Source: a virus. Taken from it: a stretch of 33,779 nt of DNA. The translations under genes and the position numbers were made by a program. The notes beneath the pieces are model-generated. The model saw only the letters and a list, made by a program, of their open reading frames with translations, was not told the DNA's origin and ran no database searches. The first letter of the stretch is position 1. Every line of letters begins with the position of its first letter. This document shows, in pieces, positions 11,690 to 27,222 of the stretch. The stretch covers positions 1-33,779 of IMG/VR virus record IMGVR_UViG_3300009169_000817. One strand, 5' to 3'.

Positions 11690-11820
11690 AAATAGAACTA
11701 TTCATCAACTGGGATTACTTAGGCTTAATGATTGCGATGCTAATCTACCCAGTATGGAGTTGCATCGAATATGTTTGCACAATTATTAATGGATTAAAAA
11801 AATGGAGCGAGAAGCAATAA
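11686..11820 (+). CDS. Single-helix membrane protein, 44 residues
   Basis: The short frame starts on an ATGA overlap with the nuclease stop and overlaps the methyltransferase start by 19 bases. The product has one hydrophobic helix at about residues 11-34 (YLGLMIAMLIYPVWSCIEYV) and a basic C-terminus. No family is recognised. Coupling to the preceding gene supports translation. It might act at the host membrane during early infection. Confidence 0.5.
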   Translation: MKIELFINWDYLGLMIAMLIYPVWSCIEYVCTIINGLKKWSEKQ

Positions 11821-12563
11821 CGGTTTCGGGCTTGTCAAAGTTGCCCTTATCAAAAGTTCAATTAAAAAAAAATATTCAAATGATAGAAGTACGGTCAAAT
11901 TTAGTAACTCACTCTGATTATAAAAATGGAACTGGATTATATGACCTTGCAATGTTTGACCCGCCTTTTGATATTTGGAAAGATATTAACTGGAAGCCTG
12001 ATGCAAAAACATTTTGTTGCTTTACAAACTTTCAAAACAGACACCACGTTGAAAAATTGTTTGGAGTACCAAAGTTTGAAATGATTTGGTTTTTTAAGGA
12101 TGGTAGATGGGTAAGCCATAATATGCCAAGACTAACACACGAACATATAATGATTTACGGAGAACTTCGTTACGATGCTTATACTGGCGAATACAATGCA
12201 AATAGAAAATCAATGAAAAAAGGAAAAGGCTGCATAGGAAGGGATAATAATTTAGGAGATAGAACCTACACACCGAGAGAAAGAAAGATGCTTAATAGTG
12301 TTATTGAAGTTCCAAGAAATGTAGGTAAAGAATTGGGTGTTTGGGGTAAACCGATTGGTTTAATAAAGCCGATAATGGAATGGCTCACTTGCAAGGGTGA
12401 AAGGGTTTGGGATGGCTTTGCTGGTAGTGGAACTTTTGGAGTAGTTGCAAAAGATTTAGAACTGTTATATGATGGTTATGAAATAAACGAAAGTAGCTAT
12501 CAAAAAGCAAATGTCAGAATACAATCACAAACTAAACAAATTTCTCTATTTGGCAGTATGTAG
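11802..12563 (+). CDS. Beta-class DNA methyltransferase (N6-adenine or N4-cytosine)
   Basis: A 253-residue protein. The catalytic motif IV DPPF (residues 53-56) comes first, and the SAM-binding motif FAGSGT (206-211) comes near the C-terminus, followed by GYEINESSYQKANVRI. This order defines the beta class of amino-methyltransferases. The middle (about 95-180) would recognise the target. No restriction enzyme lies next to it, so it is a solitary enzyme, probably protecting phage DNA or marking it. Arginine codons are almost all AGA/AGG (10 or so against one CGT), unlike the adjacent nuclease gene, which suggests separate acquisition. An internal ATG at 11880 is an alternative start. Confidence 0.85.
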   Translation: MEREAITVSGLSKLPLSKVQLKKNIQMIEVRSNLVTHSDYKNGTGLYDLAMFDPPFDIWKDINWKPDAKTFCCFTNFQNRHHVEKLFGVPKFEMIWFFKDGRWVSHNMPRLTHEHIMIYGELRYDAYTGEYNANRKSMKKGKGCIGRDNNLGDRTYTPRERKMLNSVIEVPRNVGKELGVWGKPIGLIKPIMEWLTCKGERVWDGFAGSGTFGVVAKDLELLYDGYEINESSYQKANVRIQSQTKQISLFGSM

Positions 12564-13616: not shown

Positions 13617-14038
13617 CAAAATGTGATATTTTCCTTAAAGACTTATCGGTAAACATTGACCAATTCAGGCAATCAGGAATGGTAGTCTTGACAATGCCTG
13701 AAAAAAAAATACTCGAAGAAGCTTATCTCGAACTTGGTGGCACTCCATTCGATAAAAATTGCAAAGCTTGCGTGATGGAGACGTTCCAACGAACCGTAAA
13801 TGTTTTGGACAAAAAATATCAACCAACCACGGTCGGTGAAAATTATTCGGGAGCGAAAACGATTCCACTAACTGACCGAATAAAATCGGAAAAGTTCTTC
13901 AAGGCTGATGAATCAATGACGAATACTCAACTTCTTCATATCTTGAAAAAAGCGAAGCAACCCGAACCGAGAAACGCATCGAAAAAGAATCTCATCGATT
14001 CAATCAATGCTTTAAAACTACCTTTAAACTTTAAGTGA
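13613..14038 (+). CDS. Hypothetical protein with C-terminal SAP/HeH-like motif
   Basis: A 141-residue protein. The N-terminal part holds a CxxC (Cys50, Cys53 in KNCKACVMETF). The C-terminal 35 residues (MTNTQLLHILKKAKQPEP, then KKNLIDSINAL) resemble the helix-extended-loop-helix/SAP motif that binds nucleic acids in Rho N-terminal-like and phage proteins. It overlaps its neighbours by 4 bases on both sides and directly precedes the terminase genes, so a role in packaging or DNA binding is possible. Confidence 0.6.
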   Translation: MTKCDIFLKDLSVNIDQFRQSGMVVLTMPEKKILEEAYLELGGTPFDKNCKACVMETFQRTVNVLDKKYQPTTVGENYSGAKTIPLTDRIKSEKFFKADESMTNTQLLHILKKAKQPEPRNASKKNLIDSINALKLPLNFK

Positions 14039-14523
14039 TGTCAGAAATGCCAAATATTCCAAGACCATTTAATCCAATAGAAGCAGAGGCAATTTGTGAA
14101 AGAATTTCTGAATCTACTCTTGGACTTGTTGCTATTTGTAAAGAATTTAAAATGAGTACACTTACATTTTATAAATGGCTTAGAGACGAAGAAAATAAGA
14201 TAAACGGCGAGTCATTTGAAAAACGATACACGCGCGCGAAGGAAATTCAAACTGATTTATTAGCTGATGAAATTCTTGCAATAGCGGATGACGGAACAAA
14301 TGACACGATGACAATAATATTGCCAAATAAAGAAAAGAAGGAAGTTGAAAATAGGGAATGGACAAGTCGTTCAAAGTTGCGAATAGAAGCTCGAAAACTT
14401 TTAATTGAAAAGTTGAATCCTAAAAAATACGGAAACAAAGTTCAGCTTGACCAAAATATTAAAACCGTTTCAATACTTAATATTGACCCACTATCGGATG
14501 ATTCAAGCAACAACGGCACTTAG
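14035..14523 (+). CDS. terS: Terminase small subunit
   Basis: A 162-residue protein. An N-terminal HTH (CERISESTLGLVAICKEFKM, then LTFYKWLRDEE) is followed by a helical middle (RAKEIQTDLLADEILAIADD) and a C-terminal pattern W-T-S-R-S-KLRIEARKLLIEKLNPKKYG, which is the signature of Sf6-like small terminases. It would recognise phage DNA and load the large subunit. The ATGATG start overlaps the previous stop, and the end overlaps the large terminase by 26 bases in another frame. Confidence 0.88.
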   Translation: MMSEMPNIPRPFNPIEAEAICERISESTLGLVAICKEFKMSTLTFYKWLRDEENKINGESFEKRYTRAKEIQTDLLADEILAIADDGTNDTMTIILPNKEKKEVENREWTSRSKLRIEARKLLIEKLNPKKYGNKVQLDQNIKTVSILNIDPLSDDSSNNGT

Positions 14524-15700
14524 GAAGATAGCATCATTAAAAAAAAAGATTCGAATCGTTCAAGGTGGTCAGGGAGCGGGGAAGACCATATCGTTCTTGA
14601 TACTGATATGCAACCACGCATCGTCGCAACCCGATAGAGAAATCTTAATTATTTCGGCAGAGTTGACCAAGATGCGACTGACCGTAATCAAGGACTTCAT
14701 CAAGGTGATGCGAATGGCGGGACTTTATGAAGAGCATCGATTCTTAGCTGGAACACTTTATAAGTTTCCGAATGGTTCGTTCATTAAGTTCATCGGTCTT
14801 GATAAGTCGGATGTCGGTAAAGGACTTCGTTCAGACCTTGCATACTTTAATGAGATAAACAAATGCGACTTCGAATCGTATCGGCAAATAGCATCGAGGA
14901 CGAAGTTGGTACTTGCCGATTTCAATCCCGATTCAGAGTTCTTCGTTCACAAAGAACTTATCAATAGAGTTGATTGCGATTTCATTATTCTATCCTATAA
15001 AGACAACGAACTACTCTCCGAATCGGAGCGATACGAGATTGAACTTTACCGAGAGAAAGCATTTCACAATCCATTGGTGCAAGGTGAACTATTATTTGCT
15101 GAATCGAACATCAAGTCGCACTACTGGTCGAATGTTTGGAAGGTGTACGGAATGGGTCAGACTGGAATGCTTGATGGATTAATCTTCAAGGATTGGGACA
15201 AGATTGATAACATTCCCGAAGATGCGGTGTTGGATTGCCTCGGTCTTGACTTCGGGTTCACCAACTCATTTACTTCGATTGTGGCGAAGTATAAATGGCA
15301 AGGTATATCAATCTATCACGAGGTGATGTATGCAAGGCAGAAAGGGAATAGAGAGATTGCCGAAGCACTCAGACAATATTCGGGCATCGTTCCAATCTAT
15401 GCGGATAGTGAAGACCCACGAACCATCAACGAACTTGTCGAGATGGGTATCGATGTGGTCAAGGTGAACAAACCTGATGGCTCAGTAAACTTTTCGATTG
15501 AGAAGATAAATGAGAATCGATTTATGATTACTTCGTCAAGCAAGAATGGAATCAAAGAACTTGAATCGTACATATGGGCAAAGGACGTGAACGGGATGCC
15601 ATTGAATAAGCCTGAGAAGAAGGTCGACCATTTTTGCGATGCGATGAGATATACCGAGTTAGGCATTGCACCAATCGAGACGAACTACTATGTATATTAA
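14498..15700 (+). CDS. terL: Terminase large subunit
   Basis: A 400-residue packaging ATPase-nuclease of the Terminase_3 type. Walker A is GGQGAGKT near residue 23-30. A Walker B-like segment LAYFNEIN ends with the catalytic Glu but has Asn where Asp is usual. The nuclease domain shows LGLDFGFT and YADSEDP, supplying metal-binding acids, and VDHFCDAMRY near the end. The start at 14498 (MIQATTALRKIASLKKK) is preferred over 14447 because it matches the usual N-terminus of related proteins and shortens the overlap with terS. It drives DNA into proheads and cuts concatemers. Confidence 0.92.
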   Translation: MIQATTALRKIASLKKKIRIVQGGQGAGKTISFLILICNHASSQPDREILIISAELTKMRLTVIKDFIKVMRMAGLYEEHRFLAGTLYKFPNGSFIKFIGLDKSDVGKGLRSDLAYFNEINKCDFESYRQIASRTKLVLADFNPDSEFFVHKELINRVDCDFIILSYKDNELLSESERYEIELYREKAFHNPLVQGELLFAESNIKSHYWSNVWKVYGMGQTGMLDGLIFKDWDKIDNIPEDAVLDCLGLDFGFTNSFTSIVAKYKWQGISIYHEVMYARQKGNREIAEALRQYSGIVPIYADSEDPRTINELVEMGIDVVKVNKPDGSVNFSIEKINENRFMITSSSKNGIKELESYIWAKDVNGMPLNKPEKKVDHFCDAMRYTELGIAPIETNYYVY

Positions 15701-15723
15701 AAAATAATATTTACTTTTGAACT

Positions 15724-16233
15724 ATGATTGAAACAATAATTTTTAATGGAAAAGAATATCCCAAGTTTCAAGGTGAGGGATTCGCTGCAAAATTTGCATT
15801 TCCATTCGCAAAAGAAATCTTGAAAGGTGCTGGTGTTGATGTTGGATGCAACCGATTGGAATGGTCATTCCCTGGCTCGTTTCCCGTTGACCCAGTCATT
15901 GACCCTAACTACAACGCAATGTCACTACCGAGAAACTTCGAAGATGCCGATGGCAAGTGGGATTATATCTTCAGTTCACATTGTCTCGAACACGTTCCTG
16001 ATTGGACAAAAACATTGAACTATTGGCGAACGATGTTGAAAGATGGTGGTGTGTTATTTTTATACTTGCCACATTACTCGCAAGAATATTGGCGAACTTG
16101 GAACAATCAAAAACATATTCACAACTTGCATCCATTTGTGATGAAAGATTATTTTGAGTTCACTCAATGGAGCAAGGTATTTGTTTCAGAGAATGATTTG
16201 AATAATTCATTCTATGTAGTTGTTCAGAAATGA
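15724..16233 (+). CDS. SAM-dependent methyltransferase (class I)
   Basis: A 169-residue protein. GAGVDVGCN (residues 36-43) is a SAM-binding motif I, YIFSSHCLEHV (81-91) is the motif IV/post-I region of Methyltransf_11-type enzymes, and MLKDGGVLFLYLPHY (104-118) is the following strand. The domain is short but complete in its core. It is the first of a run of sugar- and methyl-transfer genes joined by 4-base overlaps, so a glycan or other small-molecule substrate is likelier than DNA. It lies 23 bases after terL behind an AT-rich leader. Confidence 0.8.
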   Translation: MIETIIFNGKEYPKFQGEGFAAKFAFPFAKEILKGAGVDVGCNRLEWSFPGSFPVDPVIDPNYNAMSLPRNFEDADGKWDYIFSSHCLEHVPDWTKTLNYWRTMLKDGGVLFLYLPHYSQEYWRTWNNQKHIHNLHPFVMKDYFEFTQWSKVFVSENDLNNSFYVVVQK

Positions 16234-16430
16234 GCAGACTTGGATTGTGGCAATGTAATCGATGCAAATTTAATGCGGGTGTTTACAATGGAGCGGTCAA
16301 ATGTTTGGTGATGAAAAAGGTCGTTATTCGAACGGACAAGAATTGTGCGTTGATGGATAACTCGGAGAAGCCAGGAAGAGTGATGGCAATGGACGAATTT
16401 TTAGAAGCGATAAAAATAAACACGAAATGA
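16230..16430 (+). CDS. Small Cys-rich protein, possible zinc ribbon
   Basis: A 66-residue protein with cysteines at 9, 12, 25 and 39 (WQCNRCKFN, AVKCLV, KNCALMD), a spacing that could bind one zinc ion. No named family is recognised. It lies between two methyltransferase genes and overlaps both by 4 bases, so it is made with them; an accessory or partner role is possible. Confidence 0.6.
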   Translation: MSRLGLWQCNRCKFNAGVYNGAVKCLVMKKVVIRTDKNCALMDNSEKPGRVMAMDEFLEAIKINTK

Positions 16431-17152
16431 AAATATTCAAAAACGGTCACGGCATTAAATTCAAATCAAGACCTGAGTTTTGGGCAGAAGTCGAAAACGG
16501 GAATTGGGAATCTGATACGTTCAAGGTCTTTGACCGATACATCAAACCCAATTCAACATTCATTGATATCGGTGCTTGGAATGGTGTCTGCTCCATTTAC
16601 GCAAAAAAGTTGGGAGCGAAAGTTTTCACCATCGAACCTGATTCGAACATCCATTGCGAGTTGACTGAAAACTTGAAACTGAATAAATGTGGATTAAAGT
16701 TTTTTTATGGAGTAGCGATTTCAGACAAAGAAGGATTGGTCACATTGAACACACAATCATCATTCGGTAATTCCGAAAGCAGTTTGATTAATCGTGGCAA
16801 TGTCAATGGTGAGACGCAGATTGAATCAACCACATTGCGTTCATTCGTTGAATATACGGACATAGATATGTCTGAAGTTTCACTAATCAAAATCGATGTT
16901 GAAGGTGGCGAGGTGCTAATATTAAAACAAGCACGAGAATTCTTGGCAGCACACAAGCCGACCATTTATGTCTCGTTTCATCCAGCGTGGTTTCCTGACA
17001 AGGAACAAAATATTCAAGACATCATCGAAACAATATTCCCGATTTACAAAGTGCGAAGATTAGTCGATGGTCAATTGATTGACTACACAATCGAATCATT
17101 CCGTGCGGCAATGGAAACGAATCACGAACACAACTTTATTCTTGAAGTATGA
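16427..17152 (+). CDS. FkbM-family methyltransferase
   Basis: A 241-residue protein with the FkbM pattern: STFIDIGAWNGVCSIYA (residues 43-59, motif I), FTIEPDSNIHCELTENLKLN (67-86), STTLRSFVE, then SLIKIDVEGGEVLILKQA (152-169), the hallmark of the family. Such enzymes O-methylate sugars or related hydroxyls and often sit in glycan gene clusters. It is directly followed by a glycosyltransferase. A plausible role is capping or modifying a glycan on the virion or host surface. Confidence 0.88.
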   Translation: MKIFKNGHGIKFKSRPEFWAEVENGNWESDTFKVFDRYIKPNSTFIDIGAWNGVCSIYAKKLGAKVFTIEPDSNIHCELTENLKLNKCGLKFFYGVAISDKEGLVTLNTQSSFGNSESSLINRGNVNGETQIESTTLRSFVEYTDIDMSEVSLIKIDVEGGEVLILKQAREFLAAHKPTIYVSFHPAWFPDKEQNIQDIIETIFPIYKVRRLVDGQLIDYTIESFRAAMETNHEHNFILEV

Positions 17153-18552
17153 AATTAGGATTATTGATTACTACATACAATCGACCAGACTATTTAGAAA
17201 GGTGTTTGGCAAGTTTGAACTATTCGGATTTGAATTCAGACGTTGAAGTATTGATTGTCGATGATTGCTCAACTGATAAGAAAACAATCGAGTTGATTGA
17301 ATCGGGATATCTTGAAAGCAATTTTTATTCGGTGATGTATAACCAAAAGAAGTCGGGGATATCTCAATCGATTATAACTGGATATAACCATCTATTCGCA
17401 AACGGTTGCGATGTCGTTATCAACTTGGATGGTGATGCGGTGGTGTGCGAAGATTTCTTCAGTAAGATGCAATTACTCATTGAACAATTTCCTGGCAGAA
17501 TAATAACTGGATTCAATTCACTCGTGACGAATTCACTCGGTAAAGCAAGACATCCGATATTGAAATCATTCGCAAACTATCACACGAAAAAGTCTTGTGG
17601 TGGAATCAATATGGCAATGAACGAAGCGACATTCCGAAAGTATATTGAACCAGCTTGTCAACAAGTTTTGAAGGACGGGAAAGGTAACTGGGACGAATTG
17701 GCTTGTAAGGCATACTCTGCGACTGGTATGGATATAATCGTAAGCAACCCATCAATCGTTCAGCATATCGGATTAAAATCGGCAATGGGGCATCACGAAA
17801 GACCTTGCGTGGCAACCGACTTCAAGTATTGCGATAATGACACGAAAGATATTATTGTGATGAATCAATTCGCTGGACTTGGTGACATTCTGTTTTGCAT
17901 CAAGATTGCGAATGACTTTATCGAAGATGGTCATCGTGTGATTTGGGCAGTCGATTCGCAGTTTATAAATATTCAAAAACATTTCCCCGATATTACTTTC
18001 GTTGATAAGAAACTTTTGTCAATCGATTACAATAGTCAAGTTGAAGTGAAAGGAAATGGATTCCGAGTGATTCCGATGCGATGGTCTCAAAATATTATGA
18101 AGGTCACCTTGCGTGAATGTATGAAGTCGAAGTATGCACTCGGAACAAATGACTGGAATGCTTGGAAGGAATGGAGAGACTTCGAGTGGGTGCGAGATGA
18201 GAAGTCCGAAGACCTTTTGTTTTCGATGCTCGGTCTTGATGATGGTCAAGAATATATCGTTGTGAATACGGCATACAAGACCCAAATCAGAACCATCCCA
18301 CCAATAGCAATCGAATCGAATTGCAAAATTATCAATATGGAAATCATTGATGGTTTCACTTTGCTCGATTGGTACAAGGTATTGCAGAACGCAAAACAAA
18401 TACATACCGTTTCAACTTCCATTATTTATATGCTCGAAAAAATGGAGTTGAATGCGGAAGCAGTTTGCATCTACATTCGCAAACCTGAAGAGCAAGATTT
18501 GAAAAATGTTGATTACATCCTGACCGACAAACATAAATACATTTTAGAATGA
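17149..18552 (+). CDS. Two-domain glycosyltransferase: GT2 plus GT-B-like C-terminal domain
   Basis: A 467-residue protein. Residues 1 to about 225 form a GT-A/GT2 domain: LGLLITTYNRPDYLERCLAS, EVLIVDDCSTD (33-43) and the nucleotide-sugar/metal motif INLDGDAVV with Asp94-x-Asp96. Residues about 233-467 begin IIVMNQFAGLGDILFCIKIA and continue GHRVIWAVD, resembling the N-terminal Rossmann half of GT9/heptosyltransferase-like enzymes, with later HTVSTSIIYMLE. It could add two sugars or act on different acceptors. It overlaps FkbM and the next gene by 4 bases each. The GT2 call is firm; the second domain is a weaker match. Confidence 0.8.
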   Translation: MKLGLLITTYNRPDYLERCLASLNYSDLNSDVEVLIVDDCSTDKKTIELIESGYLESNFYSVMYNQKKSGISQSIITGYNHLFANGCDVVINLDGDAVVCEDFFSKMQLLIEQFPGRIITGFNSLVTNSLGKARHPILKSFANYHTKKSCGGINMAMNEATFRKYIEPACQQVLKDGKGNWDELACKAYSATGMDIIVSNPSIVQHIGLKSAMGHHERPCVATDFKYCDNDTKDIIVMNQFAGLGDILFCIKIANDFIEDGHRVIWAVDSQFINIQKHFPDITFVDKKLLSIDYNSQVEVKGNGFRVIPMRWSQNIMKVTLRECMKSKYALGTNDWNAWKEWRDFEWVRDEKSEDLLFSMLGLDDGQEYIVVNTAYKTQIRTIPPIAIESNCKIINMEIIDGFTLLDWYKVLQNAKQIHTVSTSIIYMLEKMELNAEAVCIYIRKPEEQDLKNVDYILTDKHKYILE

Positions 18553-18881
18553 AAATATTCTCGGACGAAAACGAAAAGCCATTGGCGACTGGTGAGATTT
18601 CTGAATTGGTTGTGGTGCAAGAAAAAAAAATATTCAAGGGAAACTTTGAACTGCACCCTGGAATGAAGATGTGGGAACTTGACTTAATCAATTCAATGAT
18701 TTACGAGACCGAACTTGGCAAATCGAAAGCCGTAATTGGTGAAGACAAGTTGATTCGCAAACATCGAGAACTGGAAATAAAAGAAGACCACATCTATTGT
18801 GCTGCCATCAATATGGAGAATGCAATGCGAAAGTTTCACAAGATGCTCGGAACAAAACCACCAGCGAAAAAATTAAATTGA
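18549..18881 (+). CDS. Hypothetical protein within the decoration cassette
   Basis: A 110-residue protein with no recognised domain. It has repeated beta-like segments (ISELVVVQEKKIFKGNFELH) and a helical end (DHIYCAAINMENAMRKFHKM). Similar small proteins occur near structural genes of Bacteroidota phages, so it may be a structural or accessory protein rather than an enzyme. It overlaps the glycosyltransferases on both sides by 4 bases. Confidence 0.65.
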   Translation: MKIFSDENEKPLATGEISELVVVQEKKIFKGNFELHPGMKMWELDLINSMIYETELGKSKAVIGEDKLIRKHRELEIKEDHIYCAAINMENAMRKFHKMLGTKPPAKKLN

Positions 18882-19570
18882 AAAAAATTACTGCCAATAT
18901 TGCAACGATGCCAAGCAGAATAAATGTTCTGCTAAAAATGATTGATTCAATATACAATCAAGTTGATGAGATACGAATATACTTCAACGAGATTGAACAA
19001 GTGGATTATGCTTTTATTGCAAAATTGAAACGGGATAAAATAAAAATCGCTCACGGGAATAATTTAACCGATAACGGAAAGTTTTATTTTATTTCCGATT
19101 CGATTGAATACTACTTTATGATGGATGATGATTTCATTTATCCATCCGATTACGTTGAAAAAACTTTGAGCAATATTAATAAACATAAAGGTTGTGTCAT
19201 TACTTATCACGGAAGGAAGCTTGATGGTGTTGGATTGAATTATTATCACGGACACAAGAAAGCATATCGATGTATGGGAACGGTAAGCGAAGACGTGATT
19301 GTTGATGTCGCTGGAACTGGAGTGACTGCATTCGATACTTACTACTTCAGACCACAACTACTATTCGCATCGATGCATTTGAGAATGTCGGACTTGGTCT
19401 TCGCAAAAGAAATGGCTGACTGCGGAATCCAAGCGATATGTTGCAAACACGAATTAGGATGGATGAAAATGATGGAAAGCACCGAATCAATATTCGAATC
19501 GAATGTTGGCAAAATAACAACTGAGCAAAATAAATTATCGGATTACATTTACACTAAAAAATATTTATGA
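18878..19570 (+). CDS. Glycosyltransferase (GT-A fold)
   Basis: A 230-residue protein. TTG at 18878 is chosen as start: it makes a TTGA overlap with the preceding stop and gives the usual GT2-type N-terminus ITANIATMPSRINVLLKMI, then VDEIRIYFN. The metal/sugar-nucleotide motif is YYFMMDDDF (Asp83-85), followed by YPSDYVEKTL. Later MRMSDLVFAKE-like acidic residues (HLRMSDLVFA) may bind the acceptor. A longer frame from 18797 would overlap the previous gene by 85 bases and is unlikely. It would transfer a sugar within the same decoration pathway. Confidence 0.82.
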   Translation: MKKITANIATMPSRINVLLKMIDSIYNQVDEIRIYFNEIEQVDYAFIAKLKRDKIKIAHGNNLTDNGKFYFISDSIEYYFMMDDDFIYPSDYVEKTLSNINKHKGCVITYHGRKLDGVGLNYYHGHKKAYRCMGTVSEDVIVDVAGTGVTAFDTYYFRPQLLFASMHLRMSDLVFAKEMADCGIQAICCKHELGWMKMMESTESIFESNVGKITTEQNKLSDYIYTKKYL

Positions 19571-20157
19571 AGTTACACATCCCGATTTCACTCGACAAGT
19601 ACACGTTGACCGAAGCTGCAAGGTTGATGGATTATATTGCAACGAATCCATTCGAGAACGTCACCATTATAACAATGTGCGAAGTGATTGCAGCGGTCAC
19701 TGGTCATAGTGTTGACGCAATAAAAAAAGTAGATATTGAATCGGTGAAAAAAGCATTTACTTATATAATCAAATCCGTTGACCGTAAGAAGCAAAAACCA
19801 CCGAAGGAAGTGACCATTCAAGGAATCACCTATGAGTTTAATCAAGACCTTGCTCACAAGTCTTGGTCTGCGGGAAGGTTCATTGATGCTGATGTAATCG
19901 GTCAAGAAGTGCTGACCTATCCAGGCAAGTTCATTGCAATCCTTTACTTGAGAAAGGGAACGCAGTATGGTGATGAGAAACTTGAAGACCGTGCTGAATT
20001 AATGACCAAACATTTTCGGGGTGACCACTATGTCGATGTGGTCGATTTTTTTTTGCAGAAACGGGAACAATTATTGCCAGGATTTATGGTACTACAAACC
20101 GCAAGAAGTCAGATGCTAAGGCAAAAAGCGTTGAAGATAATTCAGAATCGTGGCTGA
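19567..20157 (+). CDS. Tail assembly chaperone, short (zero-frame) form
   Basis: A 196-residue protein with a helical N-terminal part (LTEAARLMDYIATNPFENVT) and a middle resembling phage tail assembly chaperones (YEFNQDLAHKSWSAGRFIDA, then GKFIAILYLRKGTQYGDEKL). It occupies the place of lambda gpG between packaging and tape measure genes. A run of nine T at 20046-20054 within codons Asp-Phe-Phe-Leu lets a -1 shift enter an open frame (separate entry). The zero frame continues 34 sense codons past the run. Its start overlaps the glycosyltransferase stop by 4 bases, tying the decoration cassette to the tail module. Confidence 0.7.
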   Translation: MKLHIPISLDKYTLTEAARLMDYIATNPFENVTIITMCEVIAAVTGHSVDAIKKVDIESVKKAFTYIIKSVDRKKQKPPKEVTIQGITYEFNQDLAHKSWSAGRFIDADVIGQEVLTYPGKFIAILYLRKGTQYGDEKLEDRAELMTKHFRGDHYVDVVDFFLQKREQLLPGFMVLQTARSQMLRQKALKIIQNRG

Positions 20158-20303
20158 ATTGGATTCACGCAATTGCGAAGGAAGACTATCTGCAATGGGA
20201 GAAAGTAACTGCGTTGCAATGCCAACACTTTTTGTTTATTATGAAACGGAAATACGAAGCCGATATGGAACAAATGCGAATATCTAAGATGCGAAAAAAA
20301 TAG
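19567..20303 (+). CDS. Tail assembly chaperone, -1 frameshift (G-T type) form
   Basis: A -1 shift on the T9 run at 20046-20054 would fuse the first 162 or so residues to about 82 more, read in the other frame to the TAG at 20301. The extension has no start codon close to its beginning, and its end looks like a real protein: SWLNWIHAIAKEDYLQWEKV, then FLFIMKRKYEADMEQMRI. That pattern is typical of the second chaperone product in Bacteroidota phages. The lambda G/GT pair makes the same kind of fusion. An extra base in the T run from sequencing error cannot be excluded; a true run of ten T would fuse the frames without shifting. Confidence 0.65.
20046..20054 (+). other. Slippery T9 run, probable programmed -1 frameshift site
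   Basis: Nine consecutive T in register GAT-TTT-TTT-TTG allow tRNA-Phe to re-pair perfectly one base back. Both frames stay open afterwards: the zero frame to 20157 and the -1 frame to 20303. Confidence 0.65.
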
Positions 20304-20315
20304 TCTTATTAGCGT

Positions 20316-20906
20316 ATGGCAATTAACGAAGGTGATATAGTCAATCAATTAAATTTAGGTGTTAGTCAAGACCCGATAACTGATGCGGTATTGATTGCAT
20401 TGGATTCGGTTAATGAAGAAGCGATTAATCTTGCAAGACAATTAATTAAAGACCAATCTAAATCTAAATCGGGAACTTCTGCTCAGAGTATTATTGCAAT
20501 GCCTATTTCCAAAAATGGTTCTTCATTTAGTTTTACTATTGAAGGTGATATTGCTTTGCTATTTATTGATGCGGGTGTAAATGGATTACAACAATCACAT
20601 TCGTCACCATATTCATTCAAGACTGCAAGTCCGAATGGAGCAATGGCAGAAGCAATCAGAGAATGGATTCCATCGGCTGGTGTTCAGTTACCATCGGACA
20701 ATCCATATATCAAAACATATGAGCAATTAAGTTGGGCAATCGCATCAGGAGTGAAGAAGAAAGGATTGAAACCAAAACCATTTATTGAAGAATCGTTTGG
20801 TGAAGATTTTGCTGCTCAATTAGAATTCGCATTGAGCGTGGCAATGGGTGAGGCGGTGTCGATAAAGTTCAAAACAATTGCTGACAAAATAAATTCACAA
20901 CAATAA
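20316..20906 (+). CDS. HK97 gp10-like tail completion protein (candidate)
   Basis: A 196-residue protein. The pattern EEAINLARQLIKDQSKSKSG, then SSFSFTIEGDIALLFIDAG, an NGAMAEAIREW segment, and a late KPKPFIEESF resembles HK97 gp10-type/neck proteins: an N-terminal helix, a surface-exposed strand pair and the family's PF(I/F)xP/E-type ending. It starts 12 bases after the frameshift product and overlaps the next tail gene by one base. It would join the tail tube to the head. The family match is moderate. Confidence 0.5.
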   Translation: MAINEGDIVNQLNLGVSQDPITDAVLIALDSVNEEAINLARQLIKDQSKSKSGTSAQSIIAMPISKNGSSFSFTIEGDIALLFIDAGVNGLQQSHSSPYSFKTASPNGAMAEAIREWIPSAGVQLPSDNPYIKTYEQLSWAIASGVKKKGLKPKPFIEESFGEDFAAQLEFALSVAMGEAVSIKFKTIADKINSQQ

Positions 20907-22069
20907 TGGCAGTCACAATCGAAAGCGTTCCGCAATTATATACTCCATCGGATAATCCCGTTGTGTTTACTTTTTCTTCGAACCAAACTGCGAATGCAAA
21001 TTTTGTTTATTACATTGAAGTATACGTTGGTGGAATATTAAGCGGAAACCATTTGGTCTTTCCTGAGAATGGAATATATGCACATTACGATGCGACTGAT
21101 TATGCTACGGTGTCGTGCGGTGTTCCTTATATGGGGTCAAACTTTCACGATACGGCTGCGAATAATACCGAGATTTACATCAAGGTTTTTGAACGATATG
21201 GAACACCAGCAGCGAATCAAGCTTCAGCAACATCATCAACGATAACCGTTTTCAAAGCATCATTGTCGGATAGTGATTTCATCGATTGGGACTATACCGA
21301 TTATGCCTATGGATTGAATAAAAAATGGTTAACATTATTTCCATCATCTTCAAAATATTTTTGTTCACCAACGGAACAAATGTGGACAATGTTCTTAACG
21401 AATAATCAAGCTGGAAATTTTATTGAGATTTATTTATACGATGCCAACGGTTCAGTAGTGGCATCGGATAGCGTTGCAATTACTGCTTATAAGTTTACGA
21501 TTTTTAATTTATCACAAGCGTCAATAATCGCAGCAACATCAATCACTCAATTGGATTTTGATGATTCAGCTTATTACGAAGTTTACCTTGACATAGGTGC
21601 AGCAGCAACGCAAACTTTTAGAATTTATATTGATAGGTCTTGCGATAGATATATCACAAAAAGATTTTTATTTCTCAGTTCAATCGGAAGTATAGAATGT
21701 TTTTCTTACATCTTAGCAACTGAGGAAACGAGAAGCATAAAGAGATATGGATTTGAAAAACAATTCGGACAATGGAACGATGCAAATCAATTCGTATTTA
21801 ACACAACGGATGGTAGGCAGCAAGATTACTTGGTGACATCAAGTGGTAAGATGACCGTCACTTCAGACTGGATTGAAGTCGATGTTCAAAATTGGTTGGT
21901 TCGTGAATTATATGAATCACCATTTGTCTGTATGATTTATTCATTGGTGACTTATCGAGTGCAGATTTTAAATTCATCTTACATCAAGAAAAAAATTATT
22001 ACTGATGGACTTGTTCAAGAGATTGTCGAAGTCGGATTGTCGGATGCTCGTAAATCGGTATTGATATAA
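20906..22069 (+). CDS. Tail or baseplate structural protein
   Basis: A 387-residue beta-rich protein with no enzyme motif. The N-terminal 110 residues look Ig-like (VPQLYTPSDNPVVFTFSSNQ, then YYIEVYVGGILSGNHLVFP). The remainder has many aromatic and polar residues and ends VEVGLSDARKSVLI. Such proteins precede the large tail-tip protein in Bacteroidota siphoviruses. It overlaps the neighbours by one base on each side (TAATG-type junctions). A distal-tail or baseplate role is inferred from position. Confidence 0.65.
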   Translation: MAVTIESVPQLYTPSDNPVVFTFSSNQTANANFVYYIEVYVGGILSGNHLVFPENGIYAHYDATDYATVSCGVPYMGSNFHDTAANNTEIYIKVFERYGTPAANQASATSSTITVFKASLSDSDFIDWDYTDYAYGLNKKWLTLFPSSSKYFCSPTEQMWTMFLTNNQAGNFIEIYLYDANGSVVASDSVAITAYKFTIFNLSQASIIAATSITQLDFDDSAYYEVYLDIGAAATQTFRIYIDRSCDRYITKRFLFLSSIGSIECFSYILATEETRSIKRYGFEKQFGQWNDANQFVFNTTDGRQQDYLVTSSGKMTVTSDWIEVDVQNWLVRELYESPFVCMIYSLVTYRVQILNSSYIKKKIITDGLVQEIVEVGLSDARKSVLI

Positions 22070-24438
22070 TGAAAGGAAGACTAACGATAAACAATGTTTT
22101 GATTGATATCAGCGAAGATATGCCAGTCCCTTTGTCTTATTCTATTGCTGATGTTAAAGAACCACAGAATCGAAAGAGGAACTATTCTAAAAATATTAAG
22201 CTACCAGGCACAAGAAGAAACAAAGCATTTTTCTCATCAACATATTCGTTGAGTTTATCAGCGATTGAGAATGCAACGGTAGGTTTTGACTTCGACCCAA
22301 CGCAACAAGTTCCAGCAACCTATTCAGAAGATGGTGATAATATTTTCATCGGGATGTGCAGACTTCAAAGCGTGACGATTGAAAATAAAAATTACTTTTT
22401 CAATATTGTTTTAATGACCAATATGGTCGAGTTGTTTTCGTTATTGAAAGATATTAAAGTTTCAGAATTGGGATGGTCGGAATATGACCATACATTATCA
22501 ATCACGAATATTGAAAATAGTTGGGCAACTTCGGTCGTTCAAAATGGTTCACCAGTTGCGAACTTTACGGGTGGTGTTCCTGATGGATTTGGATATCTAT
22601 ATCCGTTGGCGGATTATGGCTATTCGGGAAATCTTCGAGACTATAAAACAAATAATATATTCCCACATATTTATTTCCGAGAGATAATGACCAAGTGCTT
22701 TGCATTAGTCGGTCAGACTATCATTGGAAATTTTATTGATTCAGAAAGATTTAAACGATTCGTTCTTGGTTTTGGTGGTGGTGAGAAACAAAATGTAAGT
22801 GCATCCGATGTCTTGCAACGTAAAGCAGAATATACTGCGACGGGTTCATTCAGCGAAGATATAACTTACTCGTCGTTTGATACTCCATTTTTTCCATTGC
22901 CACCCACAGGAAATCTACTTTATAGATACAATTATAATTATAGTAAGATTTTAAAAATCGCTGATAATTTTTGGAGTGCAACAACATTGGTGGTGGATGC
23001 TCTTGGTCAGTTCGATGAAACAACTGGAGACTTTACGATTGCCAAGCAAGGGACTTATCAATTGTTATTTAATGGTGATGTTGATTTTACTTCGAGCGGT
23101 GGTTTATTAAGCACGGCAGCATTGAGGGTTGTAAGAAATGGAGCAGACCTCGGAAATATTTTTGTTACAAATAATACTGGAATAACCACATTCAATGGTT
23201 CGATAAATTTATCACTCAATGTTGGTGATGTGATTTCACTTGTATTTAAAATAGGATTTCAAAAAATAGATACTTCACAAACACTTCCCGAAGATATGCC
23301 AACGTACACCATTGGCATTGCTAATAGTGGAACTTGGAATTTCGAGTTGCGTTCATTGGGTGGTGTGCCAATCGATGGTGATACTATCTACTTGTCGAAT
23401 TACATTCCCGAAATGAAATGTTCAGATTTTTTGAATGGTGTAATCTTGGCTTTCAATCTTTACGTTGACGATGCAGATTCGGAAGGTGGTGTGAAAATAG
23501 AACCGTTGGATGATTTCTATTTAGGTTCAAACGTATTCGATGATATGACACAACTGCTCGACCATTCAAGGGAGCAGAAAATACTTTCATCATCACAGAT
23601 TAAAGGTAAAAATTATTTATACAAATTTCTCGAAGACAACGATTATTATAATCAAAATTATCGCAGCAAATTTGGTCAAGGTTATGGTGACAAGAACTAT
23701 CAAGTGCAATCGACATTCGAAAAAGGTGAACGAGTTTTTCAGTTACCATTTGCTCAGACCGTGCCGGTGGGAGTGCCAGGAACGAACATTGTTATTCCGA
23801 CCATAATTGCATTCGATGAAAATACTGGTGTTGTTACTCCATTCAAGGGAAAGCCACGAGCGTTTATTTATTCGGGATTGAGAGCATCCGATTCGTGGGT
23901 GTTGCGTAATTCAGCGGTGACAACAACATTCAACACTTACACATCTTATCCTTGCATTAATCACTTGGATGATTTAGATAATCCGACATTTGATTTTAAT
24001 TTTGAGTTACCGATTTTCTTGCAATGGTCGAATGCAAATTATGTCAATGAGAATATGTTTTCGGTTTATCACGAAAAGTTCTTGAAAGAAATAACTGGCA
24101 AAGATTCGAAAATATTCCAAGCATATTATAAGCTGAACAAGTCGCATATCCGACCACAATCATTCAGAAGGTTTGCAATGATTAATGGTGTATTGTTTAG
24201 AAAGAATGAGATAGTTGACTACAATGGAAATGGTGAAGAAACAACGTATATGGAACTCGTGAGAATAGTTGAGGGAAGTCGAAGAAGATTGATTCCAATT
24301 TTAGTGCCACAAGATTTGACTAATGATTTAGTTTCCGAAGGCGGGAACAATAGTAATGGAGCGGACACGGGTGTGTCTGTTGTTAGAGGCGAAATAAACA
24401 AAGCAGAAACAACTGCTAAATTAAGTTACGGAGGATAA
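22069..24438 (+). CDS. Large tail-tip/baseplate protein
   Basis: A 789-residue protein. The N-terminal domain carries KRNYSKNIKLPGTRRNKAFF followed by FIGMCRLQSVTIENKNYFFN, a pattern I associate with tail-tip proteins of Bacteroidota phages. The middle (about 300-420) is a beta-rich insert with TNF/C1q-like rhythm (FTIAKQGTYQLLFNGDVDFT, VVRNGADLGNIFV), perhaps a carbohydrate-binding or decoration domain. The C-terminal third includes LKEITGKDSKIFQAYYKLNK. It probably sits at the host-facing end of the tail. It lacks any enzymatic motif I can see. Confidence 0.65.
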   Translation: MKGRLTINNVLIDISEDMPVPLSYSIADVKEPQNRKRNYSKNIKLPGTRRNKAFFSSTYSLSLSAIENATVGFDFDPTQQVPATYSEDGDNIFIGMCRLQSVTIENKNYFFNIVLMTNMVELFSLLKDIKVSELGWSEYDHTLSITNIENSWATSVVQNGSPVANFTGGVPDGFGYLYPLADYGYSGNLRDYKTNNIFPHIYFREIMTKCFALVGQTIIGNFIDSERFKRFVLGFGGGEKQNVSASDVLQRKAEYTATGSFSEDITYSSFDTPFFPLPPTGNLLYRYNYNYSKILKIADNFWSATTLVVDALGQFDETTGDFTIAKQGTYQLLFNGDVDFTSSGGLLSTAALRVVRNGADLGNIFVTNNTGITTFNGSINLSLNVGDVISLVFKIGFQKIDTSQTLPEDMPTYTIGIANSGTWNFELRSLGGVPIDGDTIYLSNYIPEMKCSDFLNGVILAFNLYVDDADSEGGVKIEPLDDFYLGSNVFDDMTQLLDHSREQKILSSSQIKGKNYLYKFLEDNDYYNQNYRSKFGQGYGDKNYQVQSTFEKGERVFQLPFAQTVPVGVPGTNIVIPTIIAFDENTGVVTPFKGKPRAFIYSGLRASDSWVLRNSAVTTTFNTYTSYPCINHLDDLDNPTFDFNFELPIFLQWSNANYVNENMFSVYHEKFLKEITGKDSKIFQAYYKLNKSHIRPQSFRRFAMINGVLFRKNEIVDYNGNGEETTYMELVRIVEGSRRRLIPILVPQDLTNDLVSEGGNNSNGADTGVSVVRGEINKAETTAKLSYGG

Positions 24439-24442
24439 AAAT

Positions 24443-24964
24443 ATGTGCAGAACAAGCGTTGAAAGAAGAGTGGTAAAAGTATCAAGTATCGCTGGAGAAG
24501 TTCCAACGATTCCCGCAAGTGATGACCACACGGATGGAAGTTGGATTGCGACTGATGTTTATGTGGGTGAATTGTTTTTCAATTCAGCCGATGGAATAAT
24601 GTATACACGTTCATCGAATGGAATAGAAGTTGTCGGTGGTGGTGCGGGTGCAATCAAAGAATATTTTGCAATCATAACGCAAGCGGGAGTTACTGCTCCA
24701 ACCGTTGACACGTTGATAAAAAACACTATTGGTTCGGTTGCATTTGCTTATGATGACCCTGGCGAATTTGCTTTGAATTCGTCATCATTATTTCCATCGA
24801 ATAAAACCGTTTTTGCAATTGTTCCTTCACCGACAACTGGAACGTGTGCATTGTTTTGGAATTCATCTTCCAAAATAATTCTTCAAACTGCAAAAGATGG
24901 TGGTGGTGGATTTGATAACGACCAACTTACTAAGGCAACTATTCATATAATCGTATTGCCATAA
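24443..24964 (+). CDS. Tail-associated protein with fibre-like domains
   Basis: A 173-residue protein. The N-terminal half has DGSWIATDVYVGELFFNSAD and IMYTRSSNGIEVV, a motif found repeatedly in fibre and adhesin genes of Bacteroidota phages. The C-terminal half (YFAIITQAGVTAPTVDTLI, then FPSNKTVFAIVPSPTTG and ATIHIIVLP) matches another domain common at the end of such proteins. It lies between the tail-tip and tape measure genes, overlapping the latter by one base. Likely a minor tail or adhesion component. Confidence 0.65.
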   Translation: MCRTSVERRVVKVSSIAGEVPTIPASDDHTDGSWIATDVYVGELFFNSADGIMYTRSSNGIEVVGGGAGAIKEYFAIITQAGVTAPTVDTLIKNTIGSVAFAYDDPGEFALNSSSLFPSNKTVFAIVPSPTTGTCALFWNSSSKIILQTAKDGGGGFDNDQLTKATIHIIVLP

Positions 24965-27222
24965 TGGAACGCACCGTAATAATAGACGCACAAGTCAATA
25001 CTGGTAACTCGGTTGAAGATTTAGAAAAAGTTGCACAAGGATTTGATGACGTTGCTGATGCGTCAAGCAAATCGAATAGTCAAACACAAAAACAATTAGA
25101 TGACCTTAATAAGAAAGTTGAAAAAGGTGGGTTGACTTTTCGAGATTACTCAAAAGCGATTAAAGAATACCAAACAATCGCTATACAGGCTGGTGCAACA
25201 TCACCAATAGGACAAGAAGCTATTAGACGTGCGGGTGAGATAAAAGACGAATTAAAATCTATTGGCGAAGAAGTATCACGTGTTGGCGATGGCGGAAGAA
25301 AAATGCAAGCGGGCTTACAGTTAGGAGGAACAGTGGTTGCGGGTTATCAAGCATTCCAAGGTGTGACCGCAATGCTTGGCGTGGAAAACGAAGACTTATT
25401 AAAGACACTCACAAAGCTACAAGCAGCGCAAGGAGCACTTCAGGCAATAGAAACGATTCGGGCATCACTTGAAAAGGAATCGTTCTTGATGATTGAATTG
25501 CGCAATGCCAAAACAAAAGCGGCAACGGCTATTCAATGGTTATACAATGCAGCGATGAGTGCGAACCCGATGGGATTAGTTGTTCTTGCAATTGGAGCAT
25601 TGATTGCTGGTATTGGAATTTTAATTTCAAAAATGGGAGGTGTGACAGTAGTTTTTAATGCTCTCGGTAAAGTTGCATCATCGGTTCTTGATGGCATTGT
25701 TGCTGGTATTGATTATGCGATTGAATTGGCTGCGGGATTATTTGACGTTCTTACATTAGGATTATTTGACGCAAGTGGTTCTTATAAGAATTATAAAAAA
25801 TCTGTTGACGATGCAAATAAAGCAGAAAAAGAAAGGATTGAAACCTTAAATAAACAGATTGAAGCAAGTAAAGAAGTAATTAAAGAACAGGAAAATATAA
25901 GGAAAGCACATCAAAAAGCTGCCGATGACATACAAAAACAAAGAGATTTAATTGTAGGTAGATATGATAAAGAGATTGAGGTAGCCAATGCTGCGGGAAA
26001 AAATACCGAGCAGATGGAAATGGAAAAGTTAGAAATTGTGCGACAATCTACACTTGACCAAATTGCTGAGCTTAATAAAGTTTTAGATGCTGAAAGAATT
26101 ATAGCAGAAGAGAAGCAAAAAATTTACGAAGCAGAGCGGGATAAATTTAAGTCAGGACCAAGTTTTTTGGCTCAATTTGCAGAAATAGATGCTAGGGATG
26201 CAAAGGCAGCCGTAGCTGAAACAAAAAAATCATTAGGAGAATTAGCAACAGTTTACGACGATACGGAACAAAAAATAAATGTAAAAAGTGCAGAAAATCA
26301 AAAGAAAGCTAATGATGCTTTTAAAAAATCTGAAGAAGAAAAAACTGCAAAATTAAAAGAAGAAGGTGAAAAGCGAAAAGAACTTCAAAGACAATTGGAA
26401 GACCAGATTGCTGCTAACATAAAGGATGCTGATGAACGTGCAATCACTCAACTTCAATTGAAGCATCAACGTGAGCGTGACGAGTTGATTGAAAAGTATG
26501 GAAAGGAATCGGCTTTACTTGCAAATCTCGAAAGGATTCAAGCGGGAGAAAGAAACAAATTGCTTGATGAGATTCAAGAGGGGGATGCGGAAGAAAAGAA
26601 AAAAAGAGGTGAGGACAATTTACGAGTAGAGCAAGAAGTTAATGCAACAACAGGACAAGCATATGCAGATGCACAAGCAGCTTGGGATAAACTTCAAGAT
26701 GATAAACTTAAGAAAAAGAAAGAAACTGAAGACGCAATTTTTGCCGTGGGACAAGCTGCAATAAATGGATTGAAATCAATCGGTGAACTTGCAATCAAAG
26801 ACCAACAGAAAGCTTTGAAATTTTCAGCCGTAATGACTGCATCACAAATGGCATTGGATTCAGCAAAGGCAATCACGGGAGCGGTTGCATCAGTTAGGGG
26901 TGTTCCATTTCCCGCAAACATTCCCGCCATTGCGACTGCGGTTGCGACGGTACTTGGAAACATAGCAACGGCAGTCAAAGCATTCAAACAGGCAAAGGTC
27001 GGCTCTGCTCCATCCGTTTCAAGTTCGAGTGCATCGGGCTCAGGTGCGTCGAGTAGTGCGTCAGAGAACGAAGTGGTGAGGCGTGGAGCAAATGGTGAGA
27101 CCTTTACTGGTGAGCAACCAGCATTGACGAGACCACCAATGGCAAGAGTTTCGGTTTTGAATTCAGAACTACAAATGGTCAGACAAGAACAAGAAGCAAT
27201 CGTAGAACAATCAACTTTATAA
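24964..27222 (+). CDS. Tape measure protein
   Basis: A 752-residue, mostly helical protein with long coiled-coil stretches (about 285-560, Lys/Glu/Gln-rich) and a hydrophobic membrane-like segment at about 202-225 (MGLVVLAIGALIAGIGILIS) after a helical head (NPMGL preceding). A second hydrophobic part (TASQMALDSAKAITGAVASV at about 620-640, followed by PANIPAIATAVATVLGNIAT) is typical of the C-terminus of these proteins. The tape measure sets tail length and passes into the host envelope at injection. Using about 1.5 Å per residue, a tail near 110 nm would be expected. Confidence 0.85.
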   Translation: MERTVIIDAQVNTGNSVEDLEKVAQGFDDVADASSKSNSQTQKQLDDLNKKVEKGGLTFRDYSKAIKEYQTIAIQAGATSPIGQEAIRRAGEIKDELKSIGEEVSRVGDGGRKMQAGLQLGGTVVAGYQAFQGVTAMLGVENEDLLKTLTKLQAAQGALQAIETIRASLEKESFLMIELRNAKTKAATAIQWLYNAAMSANPMGLVVLAIGALIAGIGILISKMGGVTVVFNALGKVASSVLDGIVAGIDYAIELAAGLFDVLTLGLFDASGSYKNYKKSVDDANKAEKERIETLNKQIEASKEVIKEQENIRKAHQKAADDIQKQRDLIVGRYDKEIEVANAAGKNTEQMEMEKLEIVRQSTLDQIAELNKVLDAERIIAEEKQKIYEAERDKFKSGPSFLAQFAEIDARDAKAAVAETKKSLGELATVYDDTEQKINVKSAENQKKANDAFKKSEEEKTAKLKEEGEKRKELQRQLEDQIAANIKDADERAITQLQLKHQRERDELIEKYGKESALLANLERIQAGERNKLLDEIQEGDAEEKKKRGEDNLRVEQEVNATTGQAYADAQAAWDKLQDDKLKKKKETEDAIFAVGQAAINGLKSIGELAIKDQQKALKFSAVMTASQMALDSAKAITGAVASVRGVPFPANIPAIATAVATVLGNIATAVKAFKQAKVGSAPSVSSSSASGSGASSSASENEVVRRGANGETFTGEQPALTRPPMARVSVLNSELQMVRQEQEAIVEQSTL

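Follow-up and report, generated by a model that had tools for sequence, protein, structure and literature searches.

What does a tailed phage gain from a run of methyltransferase and glycosyltransferase genes between its terminase and its tail genes, and which molecule would the enzymes decorate? We analysed this locus in a virus record of 33,779 bases without terminal repeats, referred to at its full length as the window. In the comparison with named phages, the window terminase was closest to those of Flavobacterium phages (37%), and this kinship, together with two further pointers to a Bacteroidota host, a BT4734-like primase domain and DUF6712, points to a tailed phage of Bacteroidota type as the source. 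A nucleotide search of the cassette region against named phages returned a single short match. The contig IMGVR_UViG_3300027721_000552 (L002) differs from window positions 13716-24823 at just 5 bases, all of them among its final 6 positions; thus, the same cassette has been assembled twice alike.

Gene order and overlaps of the cassette

The slot is bordered on the left by the gene for the terminase large subunit (14447-15700; PHROG E 9.5e-29), which lies on the + strand, as do the genes from here to the tape measure gene. The cassette starts 23 bases further on with the gene of MT1, a class I SAM methyltransferase of the Methyltransf_23/11 type (15724-16233; Pfam E 4.7e-11). It continues with genes for a 66-residue protein with four cysteines (16230-16430), found only in this phage and the near-identical contig, an FkbM-family methyltransferase of the sugar O-methyltransferase type (16427-17152; PF05050 E 2.2e-16), a 467-residue GT2 glycosyltransferase with an additional, phage-typical C-terminal domain (17149-18552; PF00535 E 1.2e-14), a 110-residue protein with no Pfam or PHROG match (18549-18881), and a glycosyltransferase with a TTG start (18878-19570), which resembles KfiA in sequence and predicted fold. 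A conserved gene at 19567-20157 forms the right border. The sequence-only reading had placed two methyltransferases, one of them FkbM, and two glycosyltransferases between the terminase gene and that of a tail assembly chaperone. All of these are present, and the FkbM assignment is backed by matches above cut-off, with scores of 60.9 bits for PF05050 (cut-off 22.7) and 89.7 bits for TIGR01444 (cut-off 37.7; E 2.3e-25). The number of glycosyltransferases was also right, and the second is newly placed here as KfiA-like.

Every junction from 16230 to 19567 had been described as an ATGA or TTGA overlap, and we indeed found six consecutive 4-base overlaps at six junctions, with ATGA at 16230, 16427, 17149, 18549, and 19567 and TTGA at 18878. 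Although 4-base overlaps are common, this run is unusual, as only 7 of the 40 other junctions in the window are of this kind (hypergeometric p = 1.8e-4, with a hand-made gene list). The chain ends at 20157 and is followed by a gap of 158 bases. In the cassettes of related phages, 37 of 138 junctions measured exactly 4 bases and most of the others overlapped too, as called by a simple gene caller that partly misplaces starts. The overlaps in the window suggest co-expression of the cassette genes, and translation may be coupled as well, as the sequence-only reading had concluded from them.

The same layout bears on the possibility that, late in infection, the enzymes act on the host surface, altering LPS or capsule so that the receptor is hidden from other phages or progeny are kept off debris. 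The FkbM product, which also matches PF05575 (E 9.1e-14), resembles in RfbT an O-antigen methyltransferase, as such a role would lead one to expect. Against this, Pfam and hydropathy gave no sign of a flippase, a polyprenyl-phosphate transferase, or a membrane anchor among the cassette proteins. A strongly hydrophobic segment occurred in one of 89 cassette proteins, and the maximum 19-residue hydropathy among those of the window was 1.63. The genes also do not form a separate moron but a chain that overlaps into a conserved late gene.

The right-border gene had been read as that of a tail assembly chaperone, an assignment that we could not confirm, as its product has no PHROG or Pfam match. 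The AF2 model (pLDDT 90.6) resembles uncharacterised phage proteins; it yielded one weak BFVD match named tail assembly chaperone (E 0.03) and no PDB match. Its position fits a putative tail assembly or completion factor. Downstream lie three conserved genes, probably of the tail (20316-20906, 20906-22069, and 22069-24438), in an order common to related phages and the cultured Nonlabens phage P12024S, and then the tape measure gene (24964-27222; PHROG E 6.9e-12). Single-sequence tblastn against named phages detected no homologue of the 19567 protein, the KfiA-like protein, or the 789-residue product of 22069-24438. The latter shows a sub-threshold BclA_C match, and the product of 49-927 is an Lcl_C (DUF1566-type) protein. 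Both domain types are known from collagen-like surface proteins, and the two products are possible candidates for receptor-binding or acceptor proteins. Ser/Thr-rich windows were richest, among the structural proteins, in the products of 49-927 and 1173-2951, and a search of these proteins for Ser/Thr-rich or Gly-X-Y stretches was too unspecific to name one acceptor.

The cassette enzymes and their relatives

The 230-residue product of 18878-19570 is a predicted GlcNAc transferase of the KfiA/heparosan-synthase type. In phmmer searches, it matched PDB entry 8vh7 (E 3.6e-19), the GlcNAc-transferase part of the Pasteurella heparosan synthase PmHS2, and 5z8b (E 4.8e-16), KfiA of E. coli K5. Its AF2 model (pLDDT 94.5) matched PmHS2 in Foldseek with an E value of 5.7e-20 and a TM score of 0.89, and KfiA was matched too. 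The DDD motif is invariant across 40 homologues. The protein thus shares sequence, predicted GT-A fold, and the DDD motif region with the KfiA/PmHS2 family, which we take to be CAZy GT45; it differs from KfiA and PmHS2 in its phage context and in that no partner glucuronosyltransferase was recognised. Its gene is the most recurrent one in the cassette family. KfiA and PmHS2 are capsule enzymes, which is a further point for a host-surface target.

The GT2 part of the 467-residue protein spans approximately residues 1-230 and the C-terminal domain, with a conserved GxGD motif, residues 235-467. The latter had been taken for a second, GT-B-like domain. We could not confirm this view: the domain has no Pfam match and no convincing PDB sequence match, and hhalign gave a probability of 1.6% against a thin GT9-like profile of two sequences. 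It resembles cyanophage proteins that are encoded beside MT1 homologues. MT1 itself has counterparts with 48-53% identity in T4-like cyanophages, in a Microcystis phage, and in a phage of 636 kb. In the last of these (LR756504, L014; 7155-8324, 9001-9507), a TIGR04414 gene (E 3.6e-66, above cut-off) lies near the MT1 homologue; TIGR04414 is the protein-glycosylating Aah/TibC autotransporter O-heptosyltransferase family.

Homologues of MT1 and of the C-terminal domain adjoin each other in S-T4, Sf-CH5, and Mel-JY01, and such adjacency was found in 20 of 62 non-redundant MT1 loci. Thus, the pair is a module widespread in many phages rather than peculiar to this one. The T4-like cyanophages S-T4, Sf-CH5, and S-SM2 and the Microcystis phage Mel-JY01 share MT1 and/or the C-terminal domain with the window, but their genes sit not in the terminase-tail slot but in large sugar clusters, which in the cyanophages include nucleotide-sugar genes. 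The adjoining pair (loci L012, L013, and L015 for S-T4, Mel-JY01, and Sf-CH5) lies within these clusters, in unrelated T4-like cyanophages beside heptose and nucleotide-sugar genes. Such neighbours again suit enzymes that act on the host surface.

Phage glycosyltransferases that act on modified bases are known, and the window carries a DNA methyltransferase gene at 11802-12563, so that the enzymes might also glycosylate or methylate phage DNA. We consider this very improbable, since no gene for a hydroxymethyl-pyrimidine or another base hypermodification was identified in the window; among the scanned window proteins, none for sugar-nucleotide or modified-base synthesis was recognised. Moreover, the substrates of FkbM and KfiA-like enzymes are small molecules and sugars.

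The slot in related phages and its link to tail genes

The sequence-only reading had proposed a comparison of the cassette position in related genomes. We therefore surveyed the slot by a terminase-profile scan of viral contigs, which is unbiased with respect to cassettes. Most of the relatives are metagenomic contigs, and their genes were read by means of one set of profiles and a simple gene caller. A recognisable 19567-type gene was present at 22 non-identical loci. In 13 of them the slot was empty, with this gene directly after the terminase gene, and in nine it was filled with inserts of 665 to 3,571 bases, mostly sugar genes and in six cases including a KfiA-like gene. At the other terminase loci, the gene in this place was not recognised by the 19567 profile, and there was mostly no room for a cassette. 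The terminase tree requires at least four changes between filled and empty on well-supported branches. Presence and absence did not discriminate between the terminase and the tail tree, with four changes on each. In P12024S, the profiles of the terminase, the 19567 gene, the three downstream genes, and the tape measure matched in the same order, a link in gene order seen only via profiles; here, terminase and 19567-type gene overlap by one base, so that the border gene is kept with an empty slot. The comparison thus showed that the cassette recurs at a conserved place and is exchangeable.

Pfam analysis of 68 proteins, mostly from cassettes and including some outgroup and structural genes, identified GT2 in 15, GT25 in 4, and hexapeptide acyltransferases in 3, as well as methyltransferases. 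Single proteins of sister cassettes match a GT11 fucosyltransferase-type enzyme and a sulfotransferase. Another sister cassette (L188:6931-7995) carries an N-acetyl-sugar amidotransferase-like gene of the WbuX family (E 1.3e-48, below cut-off). Judged by eye, the small terminase gene of other related phages is directly preceded by glycosyltransferase- or methyltransferase-like genes (L006:2-688 and L011:5079-7067), possibly a third cassette location.

A KfiA-like gene lies beside the terminase gene or another head or tail gene in 36 of 47 non-redundant loci; the terminase gene is within 5 kb (≤5 kb) in 20 and a 19567-type gene directly next in 15. Eight of the 47 loci define a second site, which directly precedes the prohead protease gene and, where visible, follows the tape measure gene as its border; here too, the KfiA-like gene closes a short series of sugar genes. 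According to the tree, this placement was gained or lost at least three times. That the gene stays in the structural block and arrived there several times argues against a host-surface target, the main rival explanation, which, with the evidence on both sides, we regard as possible but doubtful. A motif scan of genome contigs, which reaches close relatives only, gave two matches, both with a terminase nearby.

In phages with the first site filled, a small sample, the divergence of the KfiA-like protein tracked that of the downstream tail genes when terminase was controlled for (partial Mantel r 0.62, p 5e-4, n=15), and the terminase less so given the tail genes (r 0.27, p 0.016, n=15). After removal of close kin (n=12), the respective values were r 0.55, p 5e-4 and r 0.19, p 0.10. 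The pattern is apparent in single pairs: L080 and L087 share 79% of the terminase and 22% of the 19567-type gene and differ in their cassettes, whereas L087 and L226 share 42% and 52%, respectively, and have matching cassettes. The linkage may reflect recombination near the terminase as well as function.

Another view is that the slot is a mere permissive insertion point for cargo, tied to the tail genes physically and not functionally. Sugar genes, which phages commonly carry, would simply collect there. The content is indeed highly variable, with several genes unique to one phage, and terminase and tail genes are strongly mosaic relative to each other. Against this view, the cargo is drawn mostly from one functional class, and at both structural sites, which are separate, a KfiA-like gene comes last among the sugar genes. 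We hold this explanation to be decidedly unlikely.

Proposed role and comparison with known systems

With moderate confidence, we favour as the best reading a late-expressed, exchangeable cassette for the decoration of the virion with glycans. The cassette would belong to the late structural operon. Drawing on the sugar nucleotides of the host, the GT2 enzyme and the KfiA-like GlcNAc transferase would assemble a short cytoplasmic glycan, to which the methyltransferases FkbM and MT1 would add methyl caps. A virion protein synthesised concurrently, most likely one of the tail, would serve as acceptor. We infer for this scheme that the enzymes are active, that they work in a single pathway, and that they modify a virion protein. 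The last point is favoured because of late co-expression, soluble enzymes, the structural-gene address in most relatives, and the linkage with tail genes. As other sugar enzymes fill the slot in other phages, the likely advantage is a varied surface glycan serving adsorption, particle stability, or recognition. Thus, of the virion decoration proposed from the sequence, the glycan/methyl cassette in a late operon stands, while it is the context that favours the target. Against the decoration of virions, the RfbT match of FkbM and the capsule-building KfiA and PmHS2 suit a host-surface target equally, soluble enzymes can also work on lipid-linked glycans, and the tail-gene linkage could just mark where recombination breaks.

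A broader proposal, which we put forward as speculative and on balance unlikely, is a Bacteroidota phage family with interchangeable tail-linked cassettes. A heparosan-synthase-like enzyme would build a GlcNAc-containing glycan on a tail protein, capped by methylation, acylation, or sulfation, and the cassettes would travel with tail modules, each tail type keeping its own glycan.

Serotype-conversion (gtr) morons of lysogenic phages comprise phage-encoded glycosyltransferases, a membrane flippase, and membrane-bound transferases. The cassette has the phage-encoded glycosyltransferases in common with them but lacks flippase and membrane enzymes and occupies a late-operon position; it is thus not a gtr cluster.

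To our knowledge, glycosylation of phage virions has been shown in few systems. With a conserved slot that is empty or filled in relatives, and empty in the isolated P12024S, the role of virion glycans becomes a matter of comparative test, and the phage branch of the heparosan GlcNAc-transferase family would provide a marker for such cassettes. Phage-encoded glycosyltransferases, as expected of a virion glycosylation system, are present here in the GT2 (17149-18552) and KfiA-like (18878-19570) enzymes, as is the linkage to virion structural genes, a supporting rather than strictly defining feature. In mycobacteriophages (Che8 and relatives), capsid and tail tube proteins carry glycans (PMC12619734 and PMC11256854, citing Freeman et al., 2023), so that targets of this sort do exist. 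Those systems likewise combine phage-encoded glycosyltransferases with a tailed phage and a target of the kind proposed here, with the difference that their glycans were found on virions whereas ours are predicted from genes. In the F1 phage Maravista, the glycosylation genes are placed near the 3' end of the genome (PMC11256854), and not, as here, between terminase and tail genes. The cassette had been suggested to represent an undescribed decoration system; since virion glycosylation is already known from mycobacteriophages, the proposed system would add a variant to an established class and not open a class of its own.
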